A stretch of DNA of 43,774 nucleotides from a virus. Below are positions 8,407 to 39,662 of this stretch, piece after piece (position 1 is the first letter of the stretch; every line of letters begins with the position of its first letter). Both the position numbers and the translations under genes were made by a program. Under the pieces are notes generated by a model that was not told the origin of the DNA, searched no databases, and saw only the letters and a list, made by a program, of their open reading frames with translations. Location of the stretch: IMG/VR virus record IMGVR_UViG_3300047174_000108, positions 1 to 43,774 of that record. One strand, 5' to 3'.

Positions 8407-9750
8407 TTAGCCGAAGGCGGTAGTGAAGGCAGAGACGCTTTCAATACGGGCAAAGAACTGCTGATTCTCCAAAAGTGTGCCGTAAAAACATTTCCACCCA
8501 ACCACGCGCAACTGGTTGAGGGGGTCTGATTTATCGGCGTCCTTCAGATAAGTGAATTTGGCGTCGTCCAGAACCACTTGCCCGTATGCGCCGCGACCCA
8601 GAACGAACGTCGGATAAACGGTCAGGCCGGTGGCCGGCGCCGCGGGCGGAACTTGCGCCAAGCCCAGAGCGGTGATCACCACTGTGGTGTTCGGCGTCAA
8701 CTGCGTGGCTTGGCCCGCCAGGGGGCCGCCAAGGGGGCCAGAGGCGGAAAGGCCGAGGTTGGCCGGGCTGGCGGTGGTGCCGACATAGACGTTGAAGGTG
8801 TAGCCGACGATGTTGGGCAGCGTCACGCTGATCGAGCCGTTGGGGCCGGTGACGGCGATCGCGCCGGACACTTGGTAAATGCGGCTCTCGTACTGGTTCT
8901 GCGTGTCGGAAGCGGTGACGGTGATGTAGTAGTTGCCGGTCGCCAAGGAGCCCGCCGTGCCGGCCGTGCCCGAGAGCTGGGCCACGCCCGTGAAGGACGG
9001 GACCATGTTGGACTTACAGAAGCGGATGCCCGACCACTCGCCGGCCTCGTAGTTGTAGAGGCGGTTCAAGTCGGAGTAGGTCCAGGCCTGGATCACGGTG
9101 GCGTTCTGGCGGAAGTCGGCCACGACCAGGGTGTGGATGATGGCGGCGTAGTGCGGCATAGCGCGAGGATTGGACGACGCCTTGGCGCCGCCGGCATCCG
9201 CGTCGATCTTCATGTCCGTGCGCTCGTCGCCCATGTAACGCGGCGCGCCCAGCGTTTCGAGGGCAGCGTCGGTGCGAATCACGGTGGTGGTGTCGAGCAC
9301 GTCGCCCGCCACCAGAGCGGCGCGCGAGCCGCGAGAGTTGACGTAGTTCACCTGGGTGCCGGCCATGAGGGTGTTCATGGTGTTGCGTTCCAGGGTTTCC
9401 GCCAGCTGCAAGGCGACCAGCTCGGTCGCTTTCTTGAAGAGCGGGTGCTTGATGGTCATCTCGCCGACGTCGGTGATCGTCACCTTGTCGCCCCACTGGA
9501 GCGCGGTGGCGGACACCTGGGCGATAGTCATGGTCTCGCCGATGGGCGGCACGCCTTCGGAAAGCGGCGCGAAAGGCAGAGGAAGGCGGTTGTAACGAGT
9601 GGCGGTGTAGGTAGTGCCGCGGCCTTTAGGCAGGGTCAGCGGGTCGCCGAACTGATAGGCGACGAGCTGGCGCCGCGCGAGAGGCAACGTCTCGTCGGCG
9701 ATATAATTTTCGATGTCAGAGGCAAACGGACCCGCAGTATTGATAGGCAT
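8407..9750 (-). CDS. major capsid protein, N4 gp56-like, with Ig-like insertion
   Basis: 447 residues from ATG 9750, preceded by GGGAG. Conserved N-terminal features include TLPKGRGTTYTATRYNRLP, PLSEGVPP and ALQWGDKVTITDVGE, as in the N4 gp56 major capsid family; the C-terminus resumes with VLGRGAYGQV and LNQLRVVGWKCFYG. Between them, roughly residues 250-375, lies a Thr/Ser/Val-rich segment with GNYYITVTASDTQNQYESR and GYTFNVYVGTTAS, which looks like a fibronectin/Ig-type beta-sandwich. This makes the protein longer than a bare HK97-fold core. It is flanked on both sides by stable hairpins, as expected for the most abundant virion protein. Confidence 0.88.
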   Translation of the reverse strand: MPINTAGPFASDIENYIADETLPLARRQLVAYQFGDPLTLPKGRGTTYTATRYNRLPLPFAPLSEGVPPIGETMTIAQVSATALQWGDKVTITDVGEMTIKHPLFKKATELVALQLAETLERNTMNTLMAGTQVNYVNSRGSRAALVAGDVLDTTTVIRTDAALETLGAPRYMGDERTDMKIDADAGGAKASSNPRAMPHYAAIIHTLVVADFRQNATVIQAWTYSDLNRLYNYEAGEWSGIRFCKSNMVPSFTGVAQLSGTAGTAGSLATGNYYITVTASDTQNQYESRIYQVSGAIAVTGPNGSISVTLPNIVGYTFNVYVGTTASPANLGLSASGPLGGPLAGQATQLTPNTTVVITALGLAQVPPAAPATGLTVYPTFVLGRGAYGQVVLDDAKFTYLKDADKSDPLNQLRVVGWKCFYGTLLENQQFFARIESVSAFTTAFG

Positions 9751-14805: not shown

Positions 14806-14903
14806 TGCCCCGGACTTTCATAAAAACGGCCACCGCACTTATCGCACGGCGCTTTCTTTTTAGGGTCAAAGCTTTTGTAGGGGTGCGGGTCTGAAGGTTT
14901 CAT
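14790..14903 (-). CDS. 37-residue putative zinc-binding protein
   Basis: Runs from ATG 14903 (TGATG overlap with the KTSC gene stop) to a stop at 14790. Contains CDKCGGRFYESPGHW, a C-x2-C...H knuckle that could bind zinc, after a Lys/Pro-rich N-terminus. Too short for a standard ORF cut-off but coupled on both sides to real genes. Function unknown. Confidence 0.6.
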   Translation of the reverse strand: MKPSDPHPYKSFDPKKKAPCDKCGGRFYESPGHWRKA

Positions 14904-15127
14904 CAGCTTTGCTCGAACGAGTAACGACCCTTGATCTGACGATGAAAGTACTGGCCGGCCGAAGACGCAAGCGTCAGCCCGCGGTACGTCTCAGGGGGCA
15001 CGTTGGAGTAGGTGTAACTGCCGCCGCTCTGAAACTCAATCGTTAGGGTCTGCTCGTCAGGATCGTAGCTCGCCGACGAGAGGTTAGACGAAGACCGGAA
15101 GATGAAGGTCTCGGCCACCAGGGTCAC
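14903..15127 (-). CDS. KTSC-domain protein
   Basis: 74 residues. Residues 10-70 fit the KTSC fold: SSNLSSASYDPDEQTLTIEF, then SGGSYTYSNVPPETY and SSAGQYFHRQIKGRY. KTSC domains are small, found alone in phages and attached to nucleases or lysyl-tRNA synthetases in bacteria; their role in phages is not established. Placed just before the terminase, where some phages encode a small terminase subunit, but it does not look like one. Confidence 0.82.
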   Translation of the reverse strand: MTLVAETFIFRSSSNLSSASYDPDEQTLTIEFQSGGSYTYSNVPPETYRGLTLASSAGQYFHRQIKGRYSFEQS

Positions 15128-26111: not shown

Positions 26112-26795
26112 ATGACCGCATCCACCAAAATGACCGCCGATTGGGTTCGACGGACGATCACCGACAACCCTTGCCGCAAACTCGAAGGCGGCAATATCCT
26201 GACCTGTCCCGTCCGCCTGGGCTTCCCGCACTTGGAGAAGCCTCAGAAAGCGATGGAGGAGGGCAAGGCGGACAAGTACTCCACCGTGCTGCTGTTTCAG
26301 CCCGGCTCCGACATATCGTTGATCAAGACCGCGATGGGCGAGGTCGGCGCGGAGAAGTGGGGCGACAAGCTGGCCGCCTACGCCCAGGGCGCCAACTTCC
26401 ACAACCCGATCCAGGACCAAGCGCTCAAGTCGCAGTACGATGGCTTCGTGGCGGGCCTGCCGATGATCACGGCGAACGGCGAGCGCAAGCCGCCAGTAGT
26501 GATGCAGAACCTCGCCCCATACACTGGCCGCATCTACCCAGGCCTTTGGGCGATCTGTGTGGTTCGCCCGTTTACGTTCGAGACCAAGAACAATCAAGGG
26601 GCAGTGCTGAAGCGCGGCCTGGGTTTTGGCCTGCAGAGCGTGATGATCATCGCCGATGACGAGGAGTGGGGCGGCGGGTCGGTCGATCCGCACACCGCCT
26701 TCGCCGGGGTGAAGCTCGAAGCCAACGTCAACCCCTCGGCGATGTTCGAGGGCGCGGCTGCGGCTGCGGCGCCCAAAGCTTCGGACCTGTTCTGA
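26112..26795 (+). CDS. ssb: DUF2815 single-stranded DNA-binding protein
   Basis: 227 residues. Features of the phage DUF2815 SSB family: N-terminal beta strands (RLGFPHLEKPQKAMEEGKADKY), YTGRIYPGLWAICVVRPFTFE, and GLGFGLQSVMIIADDEEWGG. It ends in an Ala-rich linker and ASDLF, an acidic-aromatic tip like the protein-docking tail of bacterial SSB. Coats single-stranded DNA for the polymerase encoded next, which starts inside its stop codon (TGATG). Confidence 0.85.
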   Translation: MTASTKMTADWVRRTITDNPCRKLEGGNILTCPVRLGFPHLEKPQKAMEEGKADKYSTVLLFQPGSDISLIKTAMGEVGAEKWGDKLAAYAQGANFHNPIQDQALKSQYDGFVAGLPMITANGERKPPVVMQNLAPYTGRIYPGLWAICVVRPFTFETKNNQGAVLKRGLGFGLQSVMIIADDEEWGGGSVDPHTAFAGVKLEANVNPSAMFEGAAAAAAPKASDLF

Positions 26796-29653
26796 TGCGT
26801 AGAGCCCACCTTGATTTCGAGACTCGTGCTGTGGTCGACATCAAGGTGGGCCAGCATCGATATGCCGAGGACGAGAATACCGGCATCTGGTGCGCCGCTT
26901 ATCAATTCGATGACGAGCCGGTTCGGCACTGGCGCCTCAATTTTGAGCCTCCTTATGACCTCCGTTGCCATGTTCAAGACGATCTTCCAGTTGTTTCTCA
27001 CAACGCTGGGTTCGAGCGCGCCATCTGGAACGCCAAGTTTCCCGCTTGGCCTCTGAAGATTGAGCAGCAGTCCTGCACCATGGCCAGAGCGGTCTCCATG
27101 GGGCTCCCGGCGTCGTTGGAAGCCCTGGCCGTGGCGCTCCGCACCAACGTGACCAAGGATAAGGAAGGCCGCGCGCTGATGATGCGCATGTGCCGCCCTA
27201 AGAAAATCCACGAAGACGGCACGATCGAGTGGCATGACACCAAAGACCTGCCTCGCCTTGTCGAATACTGCGTCCAGGACGTCCGCACCGAGGCGGCCAT
27301 CGACAAGCTTCTGCCCGAGCTGACGCCCGAGGAGCGCAAGGTCTGGGAGCTGGACCAGCACATCAATGACCGCGGCGTTCAGATCGATGTGCCGATGGTC
27401 ACGGCGGCCACGGCTTGCGCCAAGGAGCTGTTGAAGCGCGCCAACAAGAAGATATGGCTCCTGACCGACGGCTATGTGAAGAGGGTCACTGAGGCGGCCA
27501 AAATCTGCGAGTGGATCCGGTCGCGCGGCATCCCGTGCGAGAGTATCGCCGAGGGCGAGCATGAAGGCCTGATCGTCTGCGCCGACATGTTCGACGACCC
27601 TGTGATCGAAGAGGTGATCCGCCTGCGCGCCGCCAGCGCCAAGGCCTTCAAGTTCCCGGCCATGCTGAACGCTAAGTGCAAGGACGGCCGGGTGCGCGAC
27701 TCGCTTAAGTACGGCGCCACCGTCCAGGGTCGCTGGGCGGGGTCTGGCGTTCAATTCCACAACATGAAGAGGGTTGATACCGATGCGGATGCTAACGACG
27801 TTGGCCTGGCTGTGGATATCGTGCGTAATAGCGATATTCGCGATATCGCTCGTACCGTTGACCGTCTCGAAGCCCTCTTCGACTCGCCCCTCGAAACCCT
27901 ATCTCTCTGCACCCGCGCCAGCGTCATCGCCGCGCCGGGCCATAGGCTCCTAGGCGGCGACTTCTCCAACATCGAGGGGCGGCTGAACGCTTGGTTCGCC
28001 GGGGAAGCCTGGAAGCTAGACGCCTTTCGTGCCTACGACGCAGGGACAGGACCGGACCTGTACAAAGTCACTGCCGGTCGGATCATCGGCTGCGGCCCGG
28101 ATCAGGTGACCAAGGCCCAGCGGCAAGAGCAAGGCAAGGTTCCTGAACTCGCTTGCATGGGCCGTGATACCCGCGTTTTGACAGACCAAGGCATAAAGGC
28201 TATCACGGATGTCGAGTTGAGTGATCTTTTATGGGACGGTGAAGAATGGGTGTCTCACGGCGGCCTTATAGATCGCGGAAAGAAGCCGGTCATGATGCTG
28301 TCCGGCGTATTGATGACCCCGGACCATCAGGTGCTTTGCGGCGGTCAGTGGCAACAGGCCCGGACGGTCGCTTTCAACCCCGGCTGGCGCGCCCGAGCCC
28401 AGGCGACAGGTTTGGACAGCTTGTTGTCACTGCACATGTGGAGACACCTTCGGGCGGTCTTAAAGCAATCCTGGTCGTATGTGACTGCGGATCAGGACCC
28501 TACGAAGTCAATATATCCAATCTCAGAAGCGGACGAAGCACACGTTGCAATACATGCGCAAAGTGCGCTTCGGGATCGACTACAAAGCAGTGGTCCGGAT
28601 ACGCAGGAGTGGTCCCAGACGATTCGCATAGACGCCGCCTCTGCAACCGAATATCCGCCTGTTACAATCGCTGCCATAACCCTAAGGACGCTGGCTATCC
28701 AAATTATGGAGGCCGGGGTATTCATGTTTACGAGCCTTGGCGGAGCGATCGAGCAGCTTTTCTCCGCTACTTGGTCAGCCTTGAAGGCTGGGACGATGCC
28801 GCTCTTGAATTGGACCGAAGGGACGTGGATAAAGGCTACGAGCCCGGCAACCTCCGCTTCGTCTCTCACGCGCGCAATCAGGCGAACCGCCGAAAAATTG
28901 GCGTTTTACAAGCCCGGATCACAGAGCTTGAGGCGCGTCTACGACATTGCAGATGCGGGGCCGCGCAACCGCTTCACAATTATCACAGATGACGGCCCAC
29001 TAATAGTTCACAACTGCGGCTACCAGGGGGCCGCAGGCGCCTTCCGAAAAATGGGCGCCAAATACGGCGTGCGGCTGACTGACGAGATCGTCAAGCGCAT
29101 CGTCGCCCAGTGGCGCGGCGAGAACCCTAAAATCGTAGAGTCCTGGCGCATCCTGCAGGACGCCGCGATCGAAGCCGTCAGCGCTCAGGGCTGCGTTGTT
29201 TCGTGCCTGGACGGCAAGGTTGCCTACGTCTCCAACGGCGACTTTCTGTTCTGCCGCCTACCCAGCGGGCGGGTCATCTCCTACGCCTCGCCCAGCGTCG
29301 CCTGGAAAACGAAAGTGGTGGTCATTGATGGCGACGAAATCGAGTTCAACCGGCGCACCGTTTCTTTCTGGGGGATGCAGAAAGGCTGGCGACAGATCGA
29401 CCTCTACGGAGGGATGCAGTGCGCCCACGTCGTATCTGGCGCCGCACGCGACGTGCTCGTTTCCGCTATGTTTAGGCTGGAGCGAGCCGGGTACCCTCTC
29501 GTGCTCACCGTCCATGATGAGTGCCTATCCGAAGCTCCCATTGGCTTTGGAAGCGCCGACGAGTACCGCGAAATCCTGATGGAAAAGGACTCTTGGTTCG
29601 CCGAGGTGCCGATCGCCGCCACAGCCTGGGAAGGACCGCGCTATGTCAAATAA
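26795..29653 (+). CDS. family A DNA polymerase with an in-frame intein
   Basis: 952 residues from ATG 26795, which overlaps the SSB stop. Proofreading exonuclease: HLDFET (Asp7, Glu9), SHNAGFERAIW, YCVQDVRTEAA. Polymerase motif A is GGDFSNIEGRLNAW (Asp389). Motif B is GKVPELA-CGYQGAAGAF, interrupted exactly before Cys by a 287-residue intein (residues 454-740). Motif C is TVHDECLSEAP (907-909). The extein is about 665 residues, normal for short phage family A polymerases. Activity requires splicing, because the intein splits the nucleotide-binding helix. An upstream reading-frame extension to 26666 is only a shadow of the SSB gene. Confidence 0.92.
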   Translation: MRRAHLDFETRAVVDIKVGQHRYAEDENTGIWCAAYQFDDEPVRHWRLNFEPPYDLRCHVQDDLPVVSHNAGFERAIWNAKFPAWPLKIEQQSCTMARAVSMGLPASLEALAVALRTNVTKDKEGRALMMRMCRPKKIHEDGTIEWHDTKDLPRLVEYCVQDVRTEAAIDKLLPELTPEERKVWELDQHINDRGVQIDVPMVTAATACAKELLKRANKKIWLLTDGYVKRVTEAAKICEWIRSRGIPCESIAEGEHEGLIVCADMFDDPVIEEVIRLRAASAKAFKFPAMLNAKCKDGRVRDSLKYGATVQGRWAGSGVQFHNMKRVDTDADANDVGLAVDIVRNSDIRDIARTVDRLEALFDSPLETLSLCTRASVIAAPGHRLLGGDFSNIEGRLNAWFAGEAWKLDAFRAYDAGTGPDLYKVTAGRIIGCGPDQVTKAQRQEQGKVPELACMGRDTRVLTDQGIKAITDVELSDLLWDGEEWVSHGGLIDRGKKPVMMLSGVLMTPDHQVLCGGQWQQARTVAFNPGWRARAQATGLDSLLSLHMWRHLRAVLKQSWSYVTADQDPTKSIYPISEADEAHVAIHAQSALRDRLQSSGPDTQEWSQTIRIDAASATEYPPVTIAAITLRTLAIQIMEAGVFMFTSLGGAIEQLFSATWSALKAGTMPLLNWTEGTWIKATSPATSASSLTRAIRRTAEKLAFYKPGSQSLRRVYDIADAGPRNRFTIITDDGPLIVHNCGYQGAAGAFRKMGAKYGVRLTDEIVKRIVAQWRGENPKIVESWRILQDAAIEAVSAQGCVVSCLDGKVAYVSNGDFLFCRLPSGRVISYASPSVAWKTKVVVIDGDEIEFNRRTVSFWGMQKGWRQIDLYGGMQCAHVVSGAARDVLVSAMFRLERAGYPLVLTVHDECLSEAPIGFGSADEYREILMEKDSWFAEVPIAATAWEGPRYVK
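28154..29014 (+). other. intein (Hint domain) in DNA polymerase
   Basis: Starts at Cys454 (CMGRDTRVLTDQGIKAI, block A), has block B LMTPDHQVL (T-x-x-H), and ends RVYDIADAGPRNRFT (block F) and GPLIVHN before Cys741 (block G, then the +1 Cys). All catalytic features for protein splicing are present: Cys1, block B His, penultimate His, terminal Asn, +1 Cys. Between about residues 80 and 260 of the intein the in-frame sequence is low-information and matches nothing I know; a different frame there encodes an HNH endonuclease. Confidence 0.92.
28246..28992 (+). CDS. HNH endonuclease in alternate frame inside the intein
   Basis: Frame differs from the polymerase. From about residue 51: SPGDRFGQLVVTAHVE, CDCG...RCNTCAKC (zinc ribbon), RLCNRISACYNRCHNPKDAG, YPNYGGRGIHVYEPW, LELDRRDVDKGYEPGNLRF and ARNQANRR, which is the complete signature of free-standing phage HNH genes; the C-terminus ends in the usual LQARITELEARLRH coil. 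The first 50 residues from ATG 28246 are a shadow of Hint-N, so the real start may be TTG 28336, GTG 28348 or a frameshift from the polymerase frame. The stop lies inside intein block G. Likely the homing enzyme for this intein site. Confidence 0.88.
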   Translation: MGVSRRPYRSRKEAGHDAVRRIDDPGPSGALRRSVATGPDGRFQPRLARPSPGDRFGQLVVTAHVETPSGGLKAILVVCDCGSGPYEVNISNLRSGRSTRCNTCAKCASGSTTKQWSGYAGVVPDDSHRRRLCNRISACYNRCHNPKDAGYPNYGGRGIHVYEPWRSDRAAFLRYLVSLEGWDDAALELDRRDVDKGYEPGNLRFVSHARNQANRRKIGVLQARITELEARLRHCRCGAAQPLHNYHR

Positions 29654-32100: not shown

Positions 32101-32351
32101 CCGATCAATCCAGCACGCCGATCAACCGCTTTCGCGTTTTCATGGTCGATGCGACCAGCTACGACTTTTACCTTGGACCGAACCAAAGCTGGGAAGGATT
32201 CCTGGCGCAGTTGACCTCGACTGGCTGCATGATGACCAATGACATCATGATCATGCGCGACTCGATCGTGAAAATCATGCGGGTCTATGAAGGGCCTGTA
32301 GCGCCGATCGGCAACGTGATCCCGTTCCCAGAACCGAGAGGAAGCGCTTAG
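32097..32351 (+). CDS. last early gene, unknown
   Basis: 84 residues from GTG 32097. Contains FRVFMVDATSYDFYLGPNQSWEGFL and TNDIMIMRDSIVKIMRVYEGP. Alpha/beta composition without known motifs. Its stop overlaps the last minus-strand gene tail to tail, so early and late transcripts meet here. Confidence 0.6.
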   Translation: MTDQSSTPINRFRVFMVDATSYDFYLGPNQSWEGFLAQLTSTGCMMTNDIMIMRDSIVKIMRVYEGPVAPIGNVIPFPEPRGSA

Positions 32352-32566
32352 TTCATTAGCTGAGCGCGCCTCGCCTCTTCCATAGCCGCCAGGACGCGGT
32401 CCATCCCGTCCTCGCCTTTCGACCTGAGCTTGGCGCTCTCCACCCTGGCTGTGGTGGAGAGCACCGAAGCGATCACTGCCTGTTGGGTGGAGAGGATGCG
32501 CATGAAATCCTTGCCGTGCTTGTCGTAGTCCGGCTTGATCTTCATGATGTCGAGCGCCCGCTTCAT
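32348..32566 (-). CDS. last late-operon gene, helical protein
   Basis: 72 residues from ATG 32566. Meaningful sequence continues in frame upstream (VVISDEFEKLRDLAMKRALD), up to about 32600 near the end of the PurD-like gene, but no ATG, GTG or TTG is available there, so the true start is uncertain. Helical throughout (FMRILSTQQAVIASVLSTTARVESAKLR). It has the size and helical character of a small terminase subunit, yet is far from terL; that idea is speculative. Confidence 0.5.
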   Translation of the reverse strand: MKRALDIMKIKPDYDKHGKDFMRILSTQQAVIASVLSTTARVESAKLRSKGEDGMDRVLAAMEEARRAQLMN

Positions 32567-32613
32567 GGCCAGGTCGCGGAGCTTCTCGAACTCGTCGGAG
32601 ATGACGACTTCGG

Positions 32614-33936
32614 TTAGAACGTCATCCCCGTCGCGTAGCCGTGCTTCTGAACTTCGGGCAATTGCTTCTTCAGCCTGCTCCCGATATCCGGCCGCCAGAA
32701 CGGCGACGCCGGAATCTTGATCTTCTCCAAGATCCGGTACGCCTTGTTTCGCGCCTGCTGTACGCTGTCGCCCAGTCCCGTCGCCACCAGCACGTAGTCC
32801 CCCGCCGCCAGGGTCATCTTCTCGCTGACGATTTGCCCGTTCCGCTCTTGCGGCGCGGGTCCTTCCATCGCGCCACACAGGTGGACGTTCTTCTTCAGGG
32901 CCGGGGTCAGTCCGTAGAGGGGCGCCCCCATGATCTTGTCCAGCGGGGTCTTCCCGTAAGGGAACTCCGGGAGCGCCATCACCACCCCGGTCGAGATTTT
33001 GTTTAAGGAGAAGGGCCGACTGTCGCGCCCTTCTGCGAGCGAAGCCAGCCATTCTGCGTGATCTCCCTTGAGCAAGCTCTGCTGGATGTTAAACGTCGGC
33101 CACCCTGGGCGCATGGTGAACTCCAGCGGCCAAGGCGTCCCTTCTTCGTCAATGATACAGTTCACATCGACGTAGCCGCAATAGTCCAGACGCGAGAGGG
33201 CGTCTTCGAGCGGCTTCAGCACCTTGTCGGCCAAGCGCGACCTAGCGACGAAGCGCACCACCGTCCCCATCTCGCCCACGTTTGGGCCGCGGTCGCCGGC
33301 CATCAGCGACTTGAACTCCCAGTTCTCGCACCACCCCTGGCTGAAGCCGTGCGGCCCGAAGAAGGCGCCCACGGCCATCTCGCAGCCCGAGACCTTCTCC
33401 TGCAGGATGAACGCGCCCTTGTGCCGGCCGGCTCTTTTCCACCTCTCCAGCATGAAGATCAGATCGACCGGGGTTTTGGCGACGTAGCTGAGCGACTTGT
33501 CGGCCTCGTCATAGGACGGCTTGGAGACGAAAGCGCGGTTCTCTTTCTTCACGTAGGCGATGGCCGAATCGTAGTCGGAGAACTCCTTGTAGTCGGGCAC
33601 GTCGATCTTGTGCTTTTTGAACACGTCCTGCCCGGTCTTGCGGTCCAGCTCCCACTTAGCCGCCTCCTGAGTGGCGCCGACGATCCGCACGCCGCGGTCC
33701 CGCCAGGCGTCTAACTCGCGCAGGTAGATCGTGTTGTCGGCCAAGAGCACGATGTCGGCCCAGTTGATCGAGGGGCGCCAATCGCTGATGCGCCCTTTGA
33801 CTAGCCCTTTGCCGATGTTCTGGTTGCGCTCGTCCTTGCGGAAAGACCAGCGCACCTCATGACCGTCGGCCTCCATGCGCATGGCGACGCCCAGCATCCC
33901 GTCGCTGCCGTGCCGGTCCAGCAAGAGCACCCTCAC
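32614..33936 (-). CDS. PurD-like ATP-grasp ligase
   Basis: 440 residues from ATG 33936. An N-terminal Rossmann-like segment (MRVLLLDRHGSDGMLGVAMRM) and full ATP-grasp core: VGATQEAAKWELDRKTGQDVF, FVSKPSYDEADKSLSYVAK, GAFILQEKVSGCEMAVGAFFG, FEDALSRL-type linker, GYVDVNCIIDEEGTPWPLEFTMRPGWPTF (metal-binding Glu and Asn/Arg). Layout and length match phosphoribosylamine-glycine ligase (PurD). It could boost host purine synthesis, or ligate another amine substrate, for example in base modification. No other purine gene is present. Confidence 0.8.
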   Translation of the reverse strand: MRVLLLDRHGSDGMLGVAMRMEADGHEVRWSFRKDERNQNIGKGLVKGRISDWRPSINWADIVLLADNTIYLRELDAWRDRGVRIVGATQEAAKWELDRKTGQDVFKKHKIDVPDYKEFSDYDSAIAYVKKENRAFVSKPSYDEADKSLSYVAKTPVDLIFMLERWKRAGRHKGAFILQEKVSGCEMAVGAFFGPHGFSQGWCENWEFKSLMAGDRGPNVGEMGTVVRFVARSRLADKVLKPLEDALSRLDYCGYVDVNCIIDEEGTPWPLEFTMRPGWPTFNIQQSLLKGDHAEWLASLAEGRDSRPFSLNKISTGVVMALPEFPYGKTPLDKIMGAPLYGLTPALKKNVHLCGAMEGPAPQERNGQIVSEKMTLAAGDYVLVATGLGDSVQQARNKAYRILEKIKIPASPFWRPDIGSRLKKQLPEVQKHGYATGMTF

Positions 33937-33949
33937 TGGTCGCTCCTAT

Positions 33950-34252
33950 TCACCTTATGCACTTTTCGTTATAATAAACGGGTCCAAGCTGCTTGATGTC
34001 GTAAGGGTGGACATTGCCCCAAGCTTTATGAACGGGTGTAACGGGTTCATCCCTGCTGGCTATAAAGGGCCTTTTAATAAGCTGAGCACATAACTCTGCT
34101 ATACACATAGCCAATCCTTGTTGTGTGTTTTCTTCTTCAGCTTTCATTGCATAATATTTTCCGCCTTCTTCTATTTGTATGTGGACCTGCACTATTTTAT
34201 TATCTGGGTCTGTTTTGTCTGCTTGGTTTAAAACGTACGCTGAGATTTTCAT
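33950..34252 (-). CDS. AT-rich small gene, unknown
   Basis: 100 residues from ATG 34252 (ATGA overlap with the upstream stop). Contains KISAYVLNQADKTDPDNKIVQVHIQIEEGGKYYAM-type beta sheet and ENTQQGLAMCIAELCAQLI helix. Base composition is much richer in A and T than the genome average, and codons follow that. Likely acquired recently from another source. Family not recognised. Confidence 0.65.
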   Translation of the reverse strand: MKISAYVLNQADKTDPDNKIVQVHIQIEEGGKYYAMKAEEENTQQGLAMCIAELCAQLIKRPFIASRDEPVTPVHKAWGNVHPYDIKQLGPVYYNEKCIR

Positions 34253-34536
34253 TCGATACGTACTCCGTTCTTTGCGTCTATTATCGTAAATTTTAATAGC
34301 ACATCTTCTTTTCCGCATATGCCTATAAATTTTATAGGCTTTTCGTTATGAGTCCCGTGCATAAAACAATCATGTTTTCCTGGGGGGCAAGAATATATTT
34401 CTTCCCCTTTTTCAACAGACGAAATGCTGTATATATCTTCTCCTAAAATTATTTTAAAAGGCGTAAAATTTTCAACAGAAACCCATATTTCATGTAGAGA
34501 TATGACAATAGGTTTTGATACGGCTATGAGTTTCAT
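34249..34536 (-). CDS. AT-rich small gene, unknown
   Basis: 95 residues from ATG 34536, overlapping the stop of the ejection gene by ATGA. Beta-rich: SLHEIWVSVENFTPFKIILGEDIYSI, CPPGKHDCFMHGTH, KFIGICGKEDVLLKFTI. Strongly AT-rich like its downstream partner; the two look like a single inserted unit of about 590 bp in the late operon. Confidence 0.65.
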   Translation of the reverse strand: MKLIAVSKPIVISLHEIWVSVENFTPFKIILGEDIYSISSVEKGEEIYSCPPGKHDCFMHGTHNEKPIKFIGICGKEDVLLKFTIIDAKNGVRIE

Positions 34537-37163
34537 TGAGTGTTATCCGCTTGCCTGTCGTGCTTTAGCTTAGCCTTCCACGCTGCGCTGTCACGCTTTT
34601 TCTTGGACGCTGCCAGAGCTTCTGGTCGCGTGAGGTAGGCGCCGGCAGGCCGGACACCAGTAAAGCGCTCGAAGGGATTAAGCTTTGACCCTGGACGCGG
34701 CTTCGACGATGGCCCCAAAGACATGGGCAAAGCTTCGTCGGCTGCATACTTGCCGACTTCCGCCGCCTGTTCCGTCGCAGATCCTTGCTCGTTGCGGATC
34801 GGGTCGTTGCGAAAGTCCTTGTTGTTGTAAAGCTGCGCCGCTGTCGAAAGAGCGGGGTTGGCCTTGTTCGCGATCTCCTGCCGTGGATCACCTATGGTGA
34901 AGGCCAGGACGTCTTTCATGTAGGAGGGAATGACCGCCCGTTCGGGCTGGCCTTTGCTATCGGTGCCGCCCGTTCGATAAGCGAACCAGTCCATGCCTTC
35001 CGGCATCTGGCCGGTGTGTAAATATGTCGCGATCCCATTCTGAATAGCCGTGAGGCCCACGAGAGCAGCGACATAGGCGGTCTTATCGGTGACGCCTTTG
35101 CCCTCGACCAAGCCTTTCAGCGATTCGGGAATCTGCACGACGCCGCCGCCGATTTCCCGCACGGTGCCGAGGTTCCAGGAGGGTGATAGCATAAGAAGCT
35201 GTGCGATTTGGAAGCCCGATTTGTGCCAGAAGTTATTGTTCACGACCAATTCGCCGAAGCGGTTGTCGATGTTGTCTGCCAACCGCTGGCCGTAGCGCAA
35301 CTGCTCCTGCGGCGTGGCGTTAGGGTTAGCTTGCAGAAAATCCTCCATACCCTTGGCCCAGGCACCGCGCTTCATGTTCGGAACGTAGTGCTCAAAAATC
35401 GGTGCGGCTGCGCTTTGAATGATGTTGCCGGCAAGGTCGATCGATCCTCTGATAGGCTTCTCTTTCACGCCTTTCAGGGCGTCGCCTAGGTCTCGCTTCA
35501 GTGTTCCGCGTAGGGTTGAAGACAGAAGCGACGTGCCGCGCCGCGTCGCATATATCTTGTCCATGTTGAGCCGCTGACCGGATCGTTCGTAAAGAACGTT
35601 GACTTTAGCGTCTAAGCCGCTGATCGGCGCGCGCCCTAAGATCTGGTCTTTCATCTTGGCCCCGCGCATCGCCGTCCGAACCGGCGCGAAAGGCGTGGCT
35701 GCTAGGCTCTTTGCGGCTCCAACAACATCACCGCGCGACCCCTTTTTGATAGCCCTGGCTATCTCGGAGACCATGCCTTCTTCGCCCATCACCGTGGCAT
35801 GGAAGGCTGATAGGCCAAGCTTGAGCTGCACCAAGCCGTTGGAAGCGGCGCGTGCGCCGCGGTAAAAGGGGCCGACGTCACCTTGATCGAGACCCTTGGA
35901 GAGGTGGTTGTTATAGACTCGCGCCGCACCTTCTGGGGCGAAGAGCTGCTTGCCGGGCTGCGATCCTACGACCTTGCCCTTCTCCATAACGCGCACCGCT
36001 GGCTCGGATGTCTTCATACCTTTCAGCGGAACCCAACCTTCAGGTTGCGTCCCCGGCACAAACATCTTGGCCCCGATCTCCTTGGCGCTTTTCATGCCGT
36101 CAAGAATTTCATGTGCGCCGAGGTAGCGAGCCATGTTGTCGGCGTAGGCGGTCATAGCGTCCAGGGGGTTTTTGTAGCGCGGGGTTAGGCCTGCGTTCAG
36201 CCCGTCTTCATAAGTCGGCAAAGAGCGCGTTCGAAGGTTACGACCGGAACCTTGTTTACCGCCATAAATTGCACGCTCGACGTCTTCCGGCTTTTGCTCC
36301 CACATACGCGCGTAATAGTCCTGCACAAAGTTAGGCCCGCCCGTGCTTGAGCTGAATACGGTCTCTATTTGCTTACGATATGCCTGGGCCACTTCGCGTA
36401 TCGCATCAGCCGCCGGCCGTAGTTTGTCGGAAATAGTCGCCTTGCCTGCGCTTCTGTTCTCCACATAGTGAATCAAAGCAAGCTGTTCCTGAGGGGAGGC
36501 GTTGCCGACGACACGCTGGTGCTGGCCAAGGGTGTAGGCGGCCTTATCCGCTTCTAGGCCTCGCTTTCCAAGGATTGACTTGTGCAGCTCGACCGCAGCC
36601 CTGGCGTGATCGTCTACAGTCCCAGGGGAAAAGATCTTCTCTGCTGCACCTGTCGCGCCCTTGGCCGCCCTCAGTGCTTCTTCCGCTGCCTTCGGCGCAG
36701 CCTTGGCCGCCATCTCAGGCCCGAACACGCCCGCCGCAGCGTCAGCCGTGTTGCCTACCAGCCGGCCAGCCACAGAACCTTCGCCGATGGCCTTTTCGAT
36801 GGGCTGGCCCACGACGTTGTGTACCGCGCCGCCGACCGCCGCAAAGGGGTAGCCCGCAACGTCCAGGGTTGTTTTGGCGACGCGCCCGATCTTCTTCCAG
36901 TCCGTTTGACTCTTAGGCCCGGTGAAGTCTTCCTTGATCGCTTCGTTGGCCTGGCGCTGACCTTCGACGGCGGCTTTAGGGATTTCAGCGAAGCGGTCGG
37001 CTACCTTGCCGACGAAGTCCCACACCCCGCCACTGTTCTCCTTGGGTGCCGGTGGCGGCGCTTTGGGCGCTGCAGCAGGTGAAGCGGGCGTACCGACCGA
37101 AGCCCAGGGATCGGCTTTATCAGAAGGGGCAACAGTGCCGATGGCGGCCCACGGATCGGCCAC
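34533..37163 (-). CDS. large ejection / internal virion protein
   Basis: 876 residues from ATG 37163. Begins with a duplicated DPWA(A/S)(I/V)GT motif and Pro/Ala linker, then Ala-rich helices and amphipathic stretches. A charged C-terminus (KKKRDSAAWKAKLKHDRQ) ends the protein. Late position after two Gln/Ala-rich proteins and size fit the largest of the three ejection proteins of P22/T7-like podoviruses, which form a DNA conduit through the cell envelope. Membrane-inserting segments near residues 660-710 (LLMLSPSWNLG, VAALVGLTAIQNGIATYL) support this. No lytic transglycosylase motif seen. Confidence 0.72.
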   Translation of the reverse strand: MADPWAAIGTVAPSDKADPWASVGTPASPAAAPKAPPPAPKENSGGVWDFVGKVADRFAEIPKAAVEGQRQANEAIKEDFTGPKSQTDWKKIGRVAKTTLDVAGYPFAAVGGAVHNVVGQPIEKAIGEGSVAGRLVGNTADAAAGVFGPEMAAKAAPKAAEEALRAAKGATGAAEKIFSPGTVDDHARAAVELHKSILGKRGLEADKAAYTLGQHQRVVGNASPQEQLALIHYVENRSAGKATISDKLRPAADAIREVAQAYRKQIETVFSSSTGGPNFVQDYYARMWEQKPEDVERAIYGGKQGSGRNLRTRSLPTYEDGLNAGLTPRYKNPLDAMTAYADNMARYLGAHEILDGMKSAKEIGAKMFVPGTQPEGWVPLKGMKTSEPAVRVMEKGKVVGSQPGKQLFAPEGAARVYNNHLSKGLDQGDVGPFYRGARAASNGLVQLKLGLSAFHATVMGEEGMVSEIARAIKKGSRGDVVGAAKSLAATPFAPVRTAMRGAKMKDQILGRAPISGLDAKVNVLYERSGQRLNMDKIYATRRGTSLLSSTLRGTLKRDLGDALKGVKEKPIRGSIDLAGNIIQSAAAPIFEHYVPNMKRGAWAKGMEDFLQANPNATPQEQLRYGQRLADNIDNRFGELVVNNNFWHKSGFQIAQLLMLSPSWNLGTVREIGGGVVQIPESLKGLVEGKGVTDKTAYVAALVGLTAIQNGIATYLHTGQMPEGMDWFAYRTGGTDSKGQPERAVIPSYMKDVLAFTIGDPRQEIANKANPALSTAAQLYNNKDFRNDPIRNEQGSATEQAAEVGKYAADEALPMSLGPSSKPRPGSKLNPFERFTGVRPAGAYLTRPEALAASKKKRDSAAWKAKLKHDRQADNTQ

Positions 37164-37168
37164 GGCGC

Positions 37169-38332
37169 TTACCTAACCCAAACCCTAGGATCGTTAGGCT
37201 TTTTAAAGTACGCACCTTTCGGCAAGTTGTTTGCCTCATCAGGGGTTTTGGGAGTGTAAGGGTTGCTTTGAGACCCAAGGCCGCCGGGGTCCTTGCCGCC
37301 TGCGCTTACGGTAGCGGCTCGTACCCGCCCTTCAGCCCCTGTCTGGGCCACACTCTGCGCGGAAGAGCCGCGTACCTTTGCGCCTTCGAGGCTCTTGTCC
37401 GCGGCATACTTCCGGGCGCCGGCATTGGTCCCGGCCACCGCTTCTTGCGCTCCTGCACGGATGCCGGCGGCGCCCACCGTCGCGCCAGCCCGCGTTTTAG
37501 CGGTGCTCTCTTGGGCTTTAGCCCTGGCCGCCTCGACGTCCTTGGCAGCTTGCGCCCGTATATCGGCGATCTTCTGAGCCGATTCGGCGCGGACCTGGGC
37601 GAGCTCCATGGCGTTCTGCGCCTTCTGCGCCGCGATCTGCCCCTCCATGCGAACCTTCATTTCGCCGACTTCGGACTGCATCAAGGCGCGCTGCTCGGGC
37701 TCCAAGCCTTTCATCATCTCAATGCGGTTTTGCACTGCGGCCATCATGACCTGCGGCGTCGCGCCGGGGTTGGCGCGCTGGATGTCCGTCGCGATGGACT
37801 TCAGCGTCTTCTGCATGTCCATGGCGAAGCCTTGGCCGCTGGGCGACGCAATGCCGCTCATGCCATCGGCTTGCGGAGGTTGGCCGCCAGGAGCCCCGCC
37901 TGGGCTGGGCGGCGCGCCTTGCTGCGGCGGGGCCATTGGCGTCGCGCCGGGCATAGGCGTCGGCGTGAGGCCGCCTTGAGGCTGCGGCGGCCCTGCCTGA
38001 GGTGGTGGAGCGGCTTGGGGACCAGGGACACTGGGCTGCCCTGGCGCCGTGGCCTGCGACCCCTGGGGCGCGGCGGGAGGTGGCCCGCCGCCCATGACGC
38101 CTTGCGGCATCGGCGTCGCGCCGGGGATAGGCGGCTGGCCTTGCGGCGCTCCGCCGCCATCGGGCTGCAACAGCGCCTTTAGATTGGCGGCGGCGCCCTG
38201 CTGGGCGGCTATGGCCGCCTGCAGCCTCGTCTTGTTCTCTTGGATCGCTTGCTGCTTTTGACGCAGGTCCGCGCCTTGGGTAGCGCCTTGCGCCGCCCCT
38301 CCAGCAAAAGATCCAATCGTCAGTCCCGGCAT
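37169..38332 (-). CDS. ejection protein, Gln/Pro/Gly-rich
   Basis: 387 residues from ATG 38332. The N-terminus (LTIGSFAGGAAQGA) is followed by a helix (LRQKQQAIQENKTRLQAAIAAQQG), a long Pro/Gly/Gln-rich linker (residues 55-160), then a long Ala/Glu/Lys coiled-coil region (residues 200-290; AQVRAESAQKIADIRAQAAKD) and a Gly-rich end. Composition is typical of podoviral internal virion proteins. Sits between two similar genes. Confidence 0.68.
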   Translation of the reverse strand: MPGLTIGSFAGGAAQGATQGADLRQKQQAIQENKTRLQAAIAAQQGAAANLKALLQPDGGGAPQGQPPIPGATPMPQGVMGGGPPPAAPQGSQATAPGQPSVPGPQAAPPPQAGPPQPQGGLTPTPMPGATPMAPPQQGAPPSPGGAPGGQPPQADGMSGIASPSGQGFAMDMQKTLKSIATDIQRANPGATPQVMMAAVQNRIEMMKGLEPEQRALMQSEVGEMKVRMEGQIAAQKAQNAMELAQVRAESAQKIADIRAQAAKDVEAARAKAQESTAKTRAGATVGAAGIRAGAQEAVAGTNAGARKYAADKSLEGAKVRGSSAQSVAQTGAEGRVRAATVSAGGKDPGGLGSQSNPYTPKTPDEANNLPKGAYFKKPNDPRVWVR

Positions 38333-38338
38333 GGCGTC

Positions 38339-39184
38339 CTAGATGAAAGCGAAGGAAAGGAGGCTGCCGAACGCTTGGCCTAGTCCGGCGGACTGGGCGT
38401 TCGACTGCGCGTTGTTGGTGGCGGCGGCGTTGTCCGCGCCCTGCGTAGCGGACTGGCCGATCTGCAAATAGCTAGCGTCGTTTCCGACCGCCGCTTGGGT
38501 CAGCGCATCAGAAGCGTTGGTGCCGGCCACTTGGTTATTCAGCGCGGTCGCGTCCGCGGTCTGCTGGCTAAGGTACGTCTGGCTGGGCGCGGCGCTGGTC
38601 TGCGCGATCGTGTCGAGGCCCTGGGCGCCCAAGGTGGATGCGCCGAAATAAGCGGAGCCCGCCGTGCCTTCTAGCTGCGACAGCGCCGCGATGGCGGCGG
38701 CCTGGCGCGACTGCTGCTGCTGCTCCCATGTCAGGTTGAAGTTCTGCGTCGCTTGGCCGCTGACGCCTGCAGCAAAAGGCGATCCTGCCACGCCGTTCTG
38801 GGCATTGGCGACATTTTGCTGATCTTGGGTGGCGGTGAGCTGCTGGTTGTAGAGCGCGCTCTGCGGGTCGTACCCTGTGGCCATGGTTGCTGGCGCATAA
38901 GCGGCGGCGAGATTGCCGAGGCCCTGCAGAGATGAAGCGCCCTGGAACTGGCCGGCGGCCACGCCTTGGCCGGCCTGCGCCACCTGCCCCGCGCCGGCTT
39001 GCGCCTGGGCGTAATAAGGATTGCTCATCACGTTGGACGTGATCTGCTGGTACTGAGGCGCGACCTGGGAGTAGAGCGCCTGGCCAGCGCCGCTCAACTG
39101 GCTATTGTCGCTTTGGTAGTTGGCGTCAGCGGCGGCCTGGCCGGTCGGCTGGTACGGCGTCGGGGCGTTTTCTCCGCTGCTCAT
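38339..39184 (-). CDS. ejection protein, Gln/Ala-rich
   Basis: 281 residues from ATG 39184; overlaps the GNAT gene end by 59 bases. It is composed mainly of Ala, Gln, Ser, Asn and Gly, with repeated QAQAGAGQVAQAGQG-like segments and NFNLTWEQQQQSRQAAAIAAL. Ends in a hydrophobic FGSLLSFAFI. First of three consecutive ejection-type genes. No enzymatic motif. Confidence 0.68.
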   Translation of the reverse strand: MSSGENAPTPYQPTGQAAADANYQSDNSQLSGAGQALYSQVAPQYQQITSNVMSNPYYAQAQAGAGQVAQAGQGVAAGQFQGASSLQGLGNLAAAYAPATMATGYDPQSALYNQQLTATQDQQNVANAQNGVAGSPFAAGVSGQATQNFNLTWEQQQQSRQAAAIAALSQLEGTAGSAYFGASTLGAQGLDTIAQTSAAPSQTYLSQQTADATALNNQVAGTNASDALTQAAVGNDASYLQIGQSATQGADNAAATNNAQSNAQSAGLGQAFGSLLSFAFI

Positions 39185-39662
39185 TGACCCCGCCCTTCAT
39201 CCGCACATGCTTGACCTCGGAAGGCCGATAGCCCATGTGGCCGAGTAATCGCCCGAGCGTAGCAGACTTTTTCGCCGCGCCCAAGGGGACGTGAAACTTG
39301 GACGCGATGAAGGTCCGCTTGACGCCGAGCCTGTCCATTTCGCGGTTGATAAAACGCAGAAGCTTCACGCCTGCGGCGCCGCGCGCTTCGGGTTCGACAA
39401 AGAGGCCCTGACAAAAAGCCGTCTTGGTCCTGACGTTGTGCAGCGGCGTGGTGATCATGAAATCCGCGTAGCCAACCAGCACGCCGTTCTTACGCACCGC
39501 GGCGATCCTGAAGATACCGGCCTTCTCCATGGCCAGGGCCTGTGGAACGTCCAGAGCCAAGGGGATAGGCCCCTCTTCAGCCTCCTCGTGATGCTGGATG
39601 GCCAAGTCTTCCAGGCCGTCGCTGATCAGACGACTTAGAGGCTCCCAGCCGACGGTAATCAC
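39126..39662 (-). CDS. GNAT-family acetyltransferase
   Basis: 178 residues from GTG 39662, overlapping the upstream stop (GTGA). Core: FRIAAVRKNGVLVGYADFMIT (strands 1-4), CQGLFVEPEARGAAGVKLLRFINREM (acetyl-CoA-binding R/Q-x-x-G-x-G/A loop, here EARGAAG), GVKRTFIASKFHVPL and LGRLLGHMGYRP. GNAT proteins near ejection genes are frequent in podoviruses; the phage Mu Mom DNA-modification enzyme also has this fold. The substrate is unknown. Confidence 0.8.
   Translation of the reverse strand: MITVGWEPLSRLISDGLEDLAIQHHEEAEEGPIPLALDVPQALAMEKAGIFRIAAVRKNGVLVGYADFMITTPLHNVRTKTAFCQGLFVEPEARGAAGVKLLRFINREMDRLGVKRTFIASKFHVPLGAAKKSATLGRLLGHMGYRPSEVKHVRMKGGVNEQRRKRPDAVPADRPGRR

Follow-up and report, generated by a model that had tools for sequence, protein, structure and literature searches.

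What does a PurD-like ATP-grasp ligase do when its gene lies among the late genes of a virus? The window, the whole stretch of DNA analysed here, is IMG/VR virus record IMGVR_UViG_3300047174_000108 at its full length of 43,774 bases. The ligase gene (32614–33936, minus strand) has a GTG start and an intact frame encoding 440 amino acids. In a Pfam scan, the product scored 43.9 bits against GARS_A (cut-off 27) and 29.3 bits against GARS_C, below the cut-off of 34.8, and GARS_N was not matched. Its best solved relatives by sequence are PurD proteins, with the alignment beginning at about residue 75; PHROGs yielded no family and a single chance-level match (E = 0.054). The late-operon placement proposed in the preliminary description fits by gene order: the ligase gene shares its strand with those for terminase, portal, capsid, tail and lysozyme, and replication is encoded on the opposite strand (RusA, Dam, SNF2, DUF2800, ssDNA-binding protein, family A polymerase and Prim-Pol/AAA). 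A promoter and terminator scan gave a result at chance level. The same description had noted a lack of other purine genes. This was borne out in a partner search of 35 records (the window, 33 IMG/VR records and MW202796), in which neither the PurM/PurL family (AIRS_C) nor the PurA/PurZ family was present in any record.

An AlphaFold2 model of the ligase, built with 50 family members, reached a mean pLDDT of 92.5 and a pTM of 0.91. GAR synthetases took the first 13 places among the PDB entries of the VIA list, at Z 35.7 to 31.3, ahead of PurT as the next family (Z 24.4), and Foldseek was in agreement. Against 2yw2_A, 394 residues were aligned with an r.m.s.d. of 3.1 (Z 35.7), indicating a PurD fold across all domains. 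Since GAR synthetases top the fold list, the N terminus, which the sequence search had left unaligned, corresponds in shape to a PurD-type N domain. Among the predicted viral models listed by Foldseek, none had the whole PurD fold (best TM 0.44). The fold, the ATP-binding lysines and the acidic metal ligand, with K139 and E272 invariant, place the protein in the ATP-grasp superfamily. With its intact frame, its GARS_A score and its full PurD fold, the ligase is as complete as had been claimed.

The substrate side of the protein departs from PurD. Its score against TIGR00877, the NCBIfam PurD equivalog, was 101.9 bits, versus a cut-off of 288. We compared residues in 36 phage rows, 58 rows of cellular paralogs and 17 true PurDs; the last were picked from 22 loci by their GGREHA motif, which is why that motif is conserved among them. 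The equivalents of K139, E186, K209, G217, G221, G224, E272, R276, G278, R415, D417 and I418 are constant in all rows, and that of K147 is kept in 92 to 100% of rows (92% of the phage rows). By contrast, the N-domain motifs GGREHA and GPExPL are absent from the 36 phage rows, KADG of PurD is KPSG-like in the phage and cellular paralog family, and RFGDPE is replaced by R-x-G-W/Y-P. Every phage and cellular row (100%) has Thr (T274) for the invariant Asn of EFN, the GGMGA loop reads GE-x-GT, and a Tyr and a Gly of PurD have become Asp257 and Asn259 (GYxDxN). The signature EFT, GYxDxN and GE-x-GT is fixed in the 36 phage and 58 cellular rows and differs in the 17 PurDs. In the window, all on the minus strand, it comprises the loop G217–T225 (GPNVGEMGT; 33262–33288), which stands for GPNTGGMGA of PurD; D257-V-N259 within GYVDVN (33160–33168), whose PurD counterpart is Y-A-G; and E272-F-T274-M-R276-P-G-W-P280 (33097–33123), the counterpart of EFN-x-RFGDPE. 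The replaced positions are those that we take to bind phosphoribosylamine, glycine and metal in PurD, and Asp257 presumably aligns with the acidic metal ligand of D-Ala-D-Ala ligase. Judged by these residues, the ATP-grasp engine looks alive and its substrates look different from those of PurD.

Because the PurD substrate residues are replaced and the score falls far under the equivalog cut-off, we are highly confident, from sequence, that the window ligase is not a GAR synthetase; true PurD was rejected, and the earlier doubt about simple purine supply is upheld. An ordinary GAR synthetase supplying purines would have the top sequence and fold matches in its favour (TIGR00877; PDB 2yw2, 2qk4 and 1gso; whole fold, Z 31–36 at 20–24% identity); PurD and the ligase also share the ATP-grasp lysines, the Glu272 and Arg276 equivalents and the C-terminal RxDIG. 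Passages of two papers also list viral purD under purine metabolism (PMC11097641, PMC12043954), genes that may or may not belong to this family. This reading is nonetheless barely credible given the lost motifs, the low score and the lack of purine genes near the window ligase. Moreover, a true PurD above the cut-off is encoded in 21 of the 31 genomes that carry a paralog or prophage copy, including 3/3 Paraburkholderia strains, and several of the genomes without one are small or probably incomplete.

The ligase and its relatives form a separate family. In a 112-row tree, made by a quick method and accompanied by long-branch warnings from the tool, the true PurDs were set apart at support 100. 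Two further branches, at support 98 each, hold respectively the 58 rows of cellular paralogs and the phage group; the phage branch consists of the 36 phage rows and L090, which is a short contig of an Armatimonadota MAG. The phylogeny against bacterial PurD proposed in the preliminary description thus keeps the phage group separate. The cellular paralogs are drawn from widely different phyla (Woeseiaceae, Acidobacteriota, Micrarchaeota, CPR and others; L091–L152). They share EFT, GYxDxN and GE-x-GT with the phage proteins and form the sister branch, but differ in identity (about 30–34%), gene neighbours and some distinct residues (for example V185, P201 and F206). A BesA/PGM1-like ligase adjoins the cellular paralog in six loci, with other ATP-grasp and glycogen genes, and a DapF-like gene does so in four CPR loci. 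The gammaproteobacterial loci L098, L109, L112, L117, L123 and L131 show a cluster of BesA/PGM1-like ligase, ATP-grasp genes and the PurD-like paralog, which also contains glycogen synthase-like genes and, in some, a GlgC-like gene. A nanoarchaeal contig (L132:7825–10946) carries tandem PurD-like genes, the second with a fused GNAT domain (601 amino acids).

The phage branch is abundant and under constraint. Searched with the family alignment, IMG/VR yielded at least 579 coding stretches. Matches in the phages collection came from 19 records: MW202796 at 44% identity, where the gene is unannotated, and 18 others at 22–29%, some labelled purD in Acinetobacter or Salmonella records, which are probably host DNA. 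Across 16 pairs, dN/dS ranged from 0.03 to 0.34, with dS partly saturated. The gene is interrupted in frame in two records, G066 and G074, whose ligase homologue carries an intein (L499:6815–9088). The insert in G066 is 322 amino acids long, lies between GPN and CGE in the conserved loop equivalent to G217–T225, has Cys1, a terminal Asn and Cys+1, and matches LAGLIDADG_3 at 24.2 bits (cut-off 22.5). Conserved motifs of important proteins are the usual sites of inteins, and the intein in this loop, together with the purifying selection, argues that the ligase is functional.

The position of the gene gives a second line of evidence. On the minus strand of the window, a GNAT gene (39126–39656; PF00583, 21.5 bits; phrog_1249), which matches the GNATs of Pseudomonas phage PfAn1 and MW202796, is followed by a gp14-like candidate (38339–39184) and a gp15-like candidate (37169–38332), both assigned by order only, and by a candidate for the large gp16-like ejection protein (34533–37163, 876 amino acids). 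The last is assigned from the order in the window, its relatives and PfAn1; the protein had no direct match in the phages collection. Then come two small ORFs (the 33950–34252 frame, and 34249–34536; minus strand) between the gp16-like gene and the ligase. Their GC content is 0.375, versus about 0.60–0.66 in the neighbours, and no homologues were found in 80 relatives; being present in the window only, they are likely a recent insertion. Downstream of the ligase lies a small gene (32348–32626, minus strand; delimited by a family profile, with its start undefined) that is a small-terminase candidate by position and size and matched neither Pfam nor PHROGs. Many hits of its profile lie within the ligase gene, on overlapping frames, and were excluded from gene counts.

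In the relatives the order is likewise GNAT, 38339 family, 37169 family, large gp16-like protein, ligase and 32348 family. Tail-tube genes immediately precede the GNAT gene in the MW202796 clade, and in Paraburkholderia prophages, too, the ligase gene lies behind an ORF that takes the gp16 position. An upstream ORF of at least 400 codons runs into the ligase gene in 58/102 distinct loci, its stop overlapping the ligase start by 4 nt in 51 of them and by 1 nt in 7. A GNAT gene followed by three internal virion protein genes is the arrangement of the T7-like ejection module (T7 gp13–gp16), with sequence similarity for the GNAT alone; the ligase gene holds a fixed place at its end. In PfAn1, genes for two internal virion proteins and a transglycosylase directly follow the GNAT gene, but a tail protein gene stands after gp16, where the window has the ligase. 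T7, too, has a tail protein gene after gp16 and is not known to carry an ATP-grasp ligase there. In PMC6775973, such a GNAT is suggested to be the counterpart of T7 gp13. The GNAT had been presented as lying on the same transcript as the ligase. It does share the ligase's strand, some 5 kb upstream, but there is nothing special in its pairing with the ligase: its match is the GNAT that sits beside internal virion proteins in a T7-like phage, and it belongs to the ejection module where the ligase is lacking too, as in G077, which has the GNAT and no ligase.

How general is the arrangement? A portal query returned six relatives only. Sampling by the tail-tube protein of the MW202796 clade placed the ligase in 31/80 loci, and in 18/18 of those with more than 7.5 kb downstream; this sample is not independent, as the query and many of the contigs come from ligase-bearing phages and overlap with earlier contigs. 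With the tail-tube protein of the window's clade, 28 of the 32 records of 30 kb or more, among 80 loci, contained the ligase, one such record possibly having been missed. In G067 and G068, which are the same sequence where compared, the gp16-like gene runs straight into the 32348-family gene; G077 retains the ejection module and lacks the ligase; and the record of G073 ends before the region. The cases of G067/G068 and G077 are real losses. The gene is therefore common and old, yet it can be cleanly lost; an obligatory role was rejected, and the ligase is dispensable in some lineages.

The slot occupied by GNAT is filled by other enzymes elsewhere. Of 75 loci in which the tail-tube gene is followed by a complete gene, many of them near-copies, 37 have the GNAT; the other 38, assigned by reading, comprise 16 cupin+SET, 11 cupin-like, 3 Asp/Asn-hydroxylase-like, 3 second GNAT-like and 5 empty slots. 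On representatives, Pfam backs these assignments unevenly: the SET domain exceeds the cut-off in L287 and L330 and is slightly below it in L357; every cupin match is below the cut-off, and the slot proteins of L346 and L358 had no Pfam support. In part of the MW202796 clade, the gene immediately behind the tail-tube gene encodes not the GNAT but the cupin+SET protein (L287:3165–4028, L330:5313–6218 and relatives). PF05118 matched at 47.6 bits in L039, of the window's clade, above the cut-off, and at 20.6 bits in L343, below it. Of a hydroxylase-like protein, which had been described together with the GNAT, Pfam found none in the late ORFs of the window that were scanned (all but a few, such as the capsid ORF 8407–9750); what held is its presence in the relative L039 at the equivalent place. 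Most families in this slot are able to modify amino-acid side chains, a circumstantial reason to favour a protein target.

The gp16-like N termini (for example in L171, L030 and L018, and in the window at 34533–37163) often contain two or three tandem copies of a short motif that varies between phages. After near-copies and short proteins were dropped, 70 of 82 gp16-like proteins were tested, and a repeat score of 6/8 or more was reached by 34/70 N termini, versus 5/70 internal stretches and 16/1400 shuffles. A BLAST of one motif against the phages collection gave weak matches only. By eye, two phage lineages that lack the ligase have such repeats too, and PfAn1 and MW202637 have none. They do not track the ligase gene, and we rejected them as its substrate.

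We assign a probability of roughly 0.4 to a PurD-derived, neofunctionalised ATP-grasp family of which the window ligase is a member, repurposed as an amide ligase with an ejection or other virion protein as its target. The enzyme would use ATP to activate a carboxylate, forming an acyl phosphate, and then join it to an amine. It would be made late, in step with the ejection proteins, and may act alongside GNAT and the other gp13-slot enzymes, most likely conjugating an amino acid or amide to a protein of the ejection module or to another virion protein. A virion component as target, as the preliminary description had suggested, is a candidate compatible with all the data, and the narrower assignment to a protein of the ejection module is tentative. 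More speculative, and rather unlikely in full, is a PurD-fold enzyme turned protein ligase within an ejection-protein modification set with an exchangeable GNAT, SET, cupin or hydroxylase member, the cellular paralogs having comparable chemistry. We know of no protein-modifying enzyme with a PurD fold. Against a protein target stand the losses of the ligase where the ejection module stays (G067/G068 and G077), gp16-like repeats that do not follow the gene, and several slot-enzyme assignments under Pfam cut-offs. The paralog contexts (BesA-like ligase, glycogen genes, DapF-like gene) support amino-acid or amide chemistry but suit a small-molecule product equally, and our confidence is therefore split between these readings.

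A small-molecule amide ligase would make an amino-acid amide, a dipeptide or a similar metabolite for late infection, perhaps for the envelope, as an osmolyte or in counter-defence, and its location would only secure late expression. This is a serious contender, if on balance a doubtful one: the folds of PurD, PurT, PurK and biotin carboxylase act on small molecules, the paralogs adjoin BesA/PGM1-like (six loci) or DapF-like (four) genes, and clean losses suit an accessory metabolic function, but no further metabolic gene accompanies the ligase in phages, and its fixed position and frequent overlap with the gp16-like gene count against this reading. The same position and overlap would suit a non-catalytic scaffold or chaperone that reuses the PurD fold in assembly of the ejection module, as would replacement of the metal-ligand Asn (T274 in 36/36 phage rows). 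We consider this improbable, since the conservation of K139, E186, K209, E272 and R276 throughout, and of K147 in 92% of the phage rows, points to catalysis, and cells have the identical signature well away from phage modules. A further candidate is a late enzyme that adds an amino-acid or glycinamide-like group to a base before packaging. The late position of the gene and the Dam-like methylase of the window speak for it, but of the families searched in the 35 records, thymidylate synthase/hydroxymethylase and PurA/PurZ, the hypermodification partners, occurred in none and Dam in only four, the window included. The DNA-modification role raised earlier was rejected on these counts and is highly improbable.

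The purine-metabolism label for viral purD is very probably wrong, at least in this abundant environmental lineage, and the signature EFT, GYxDxN and GE-x-GT permits re-annotation of viral purD look-alikes, besides pointing to an uncharacterised cellular ATP-grasp family across bacteria and archaea. Among open-licence papers, we found none on a PurD-like ligase in ejection modules, on phosphoribosylamine-glycine ligase with phage and ATP-grasp, or on ATP-grasp with ejection protein and virion; if ejection proteins are modified, this would open a chemistry of DNA-ejection machines. Phage ATP-grasp ligases are otherwise represented by the ATP-grasp/amidoligase set of LUZ24-like phages, which, unlike the window ligase, lies in an early module according to part of the report on UFV-P2 (PMC3890496), and by the R2K ligases, for which a protein-modifying role is predicted in passages of PMC7824862 and PMC4431377.

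MW202637, a phage whose capsid protein is related but which lacks a PurD-like gene, encodes an Amidoligase_2 protein (L307:10638–12692, 62.7 bits) among genes on the strand opposite the structural ones. In the window, directly upstream of the terminase gene, lies a gene for a small KTSC-domain protein (14903–15127, minus strand; 84.3 bits). The family A DNA polymerase (26666–29653, plus strand), part of which is recognised by Pfam, contains an apparent in-frame intein, identified by eye, that starts with CMGRDTRVLTDQG and ends ...IVHN before CGYQG.
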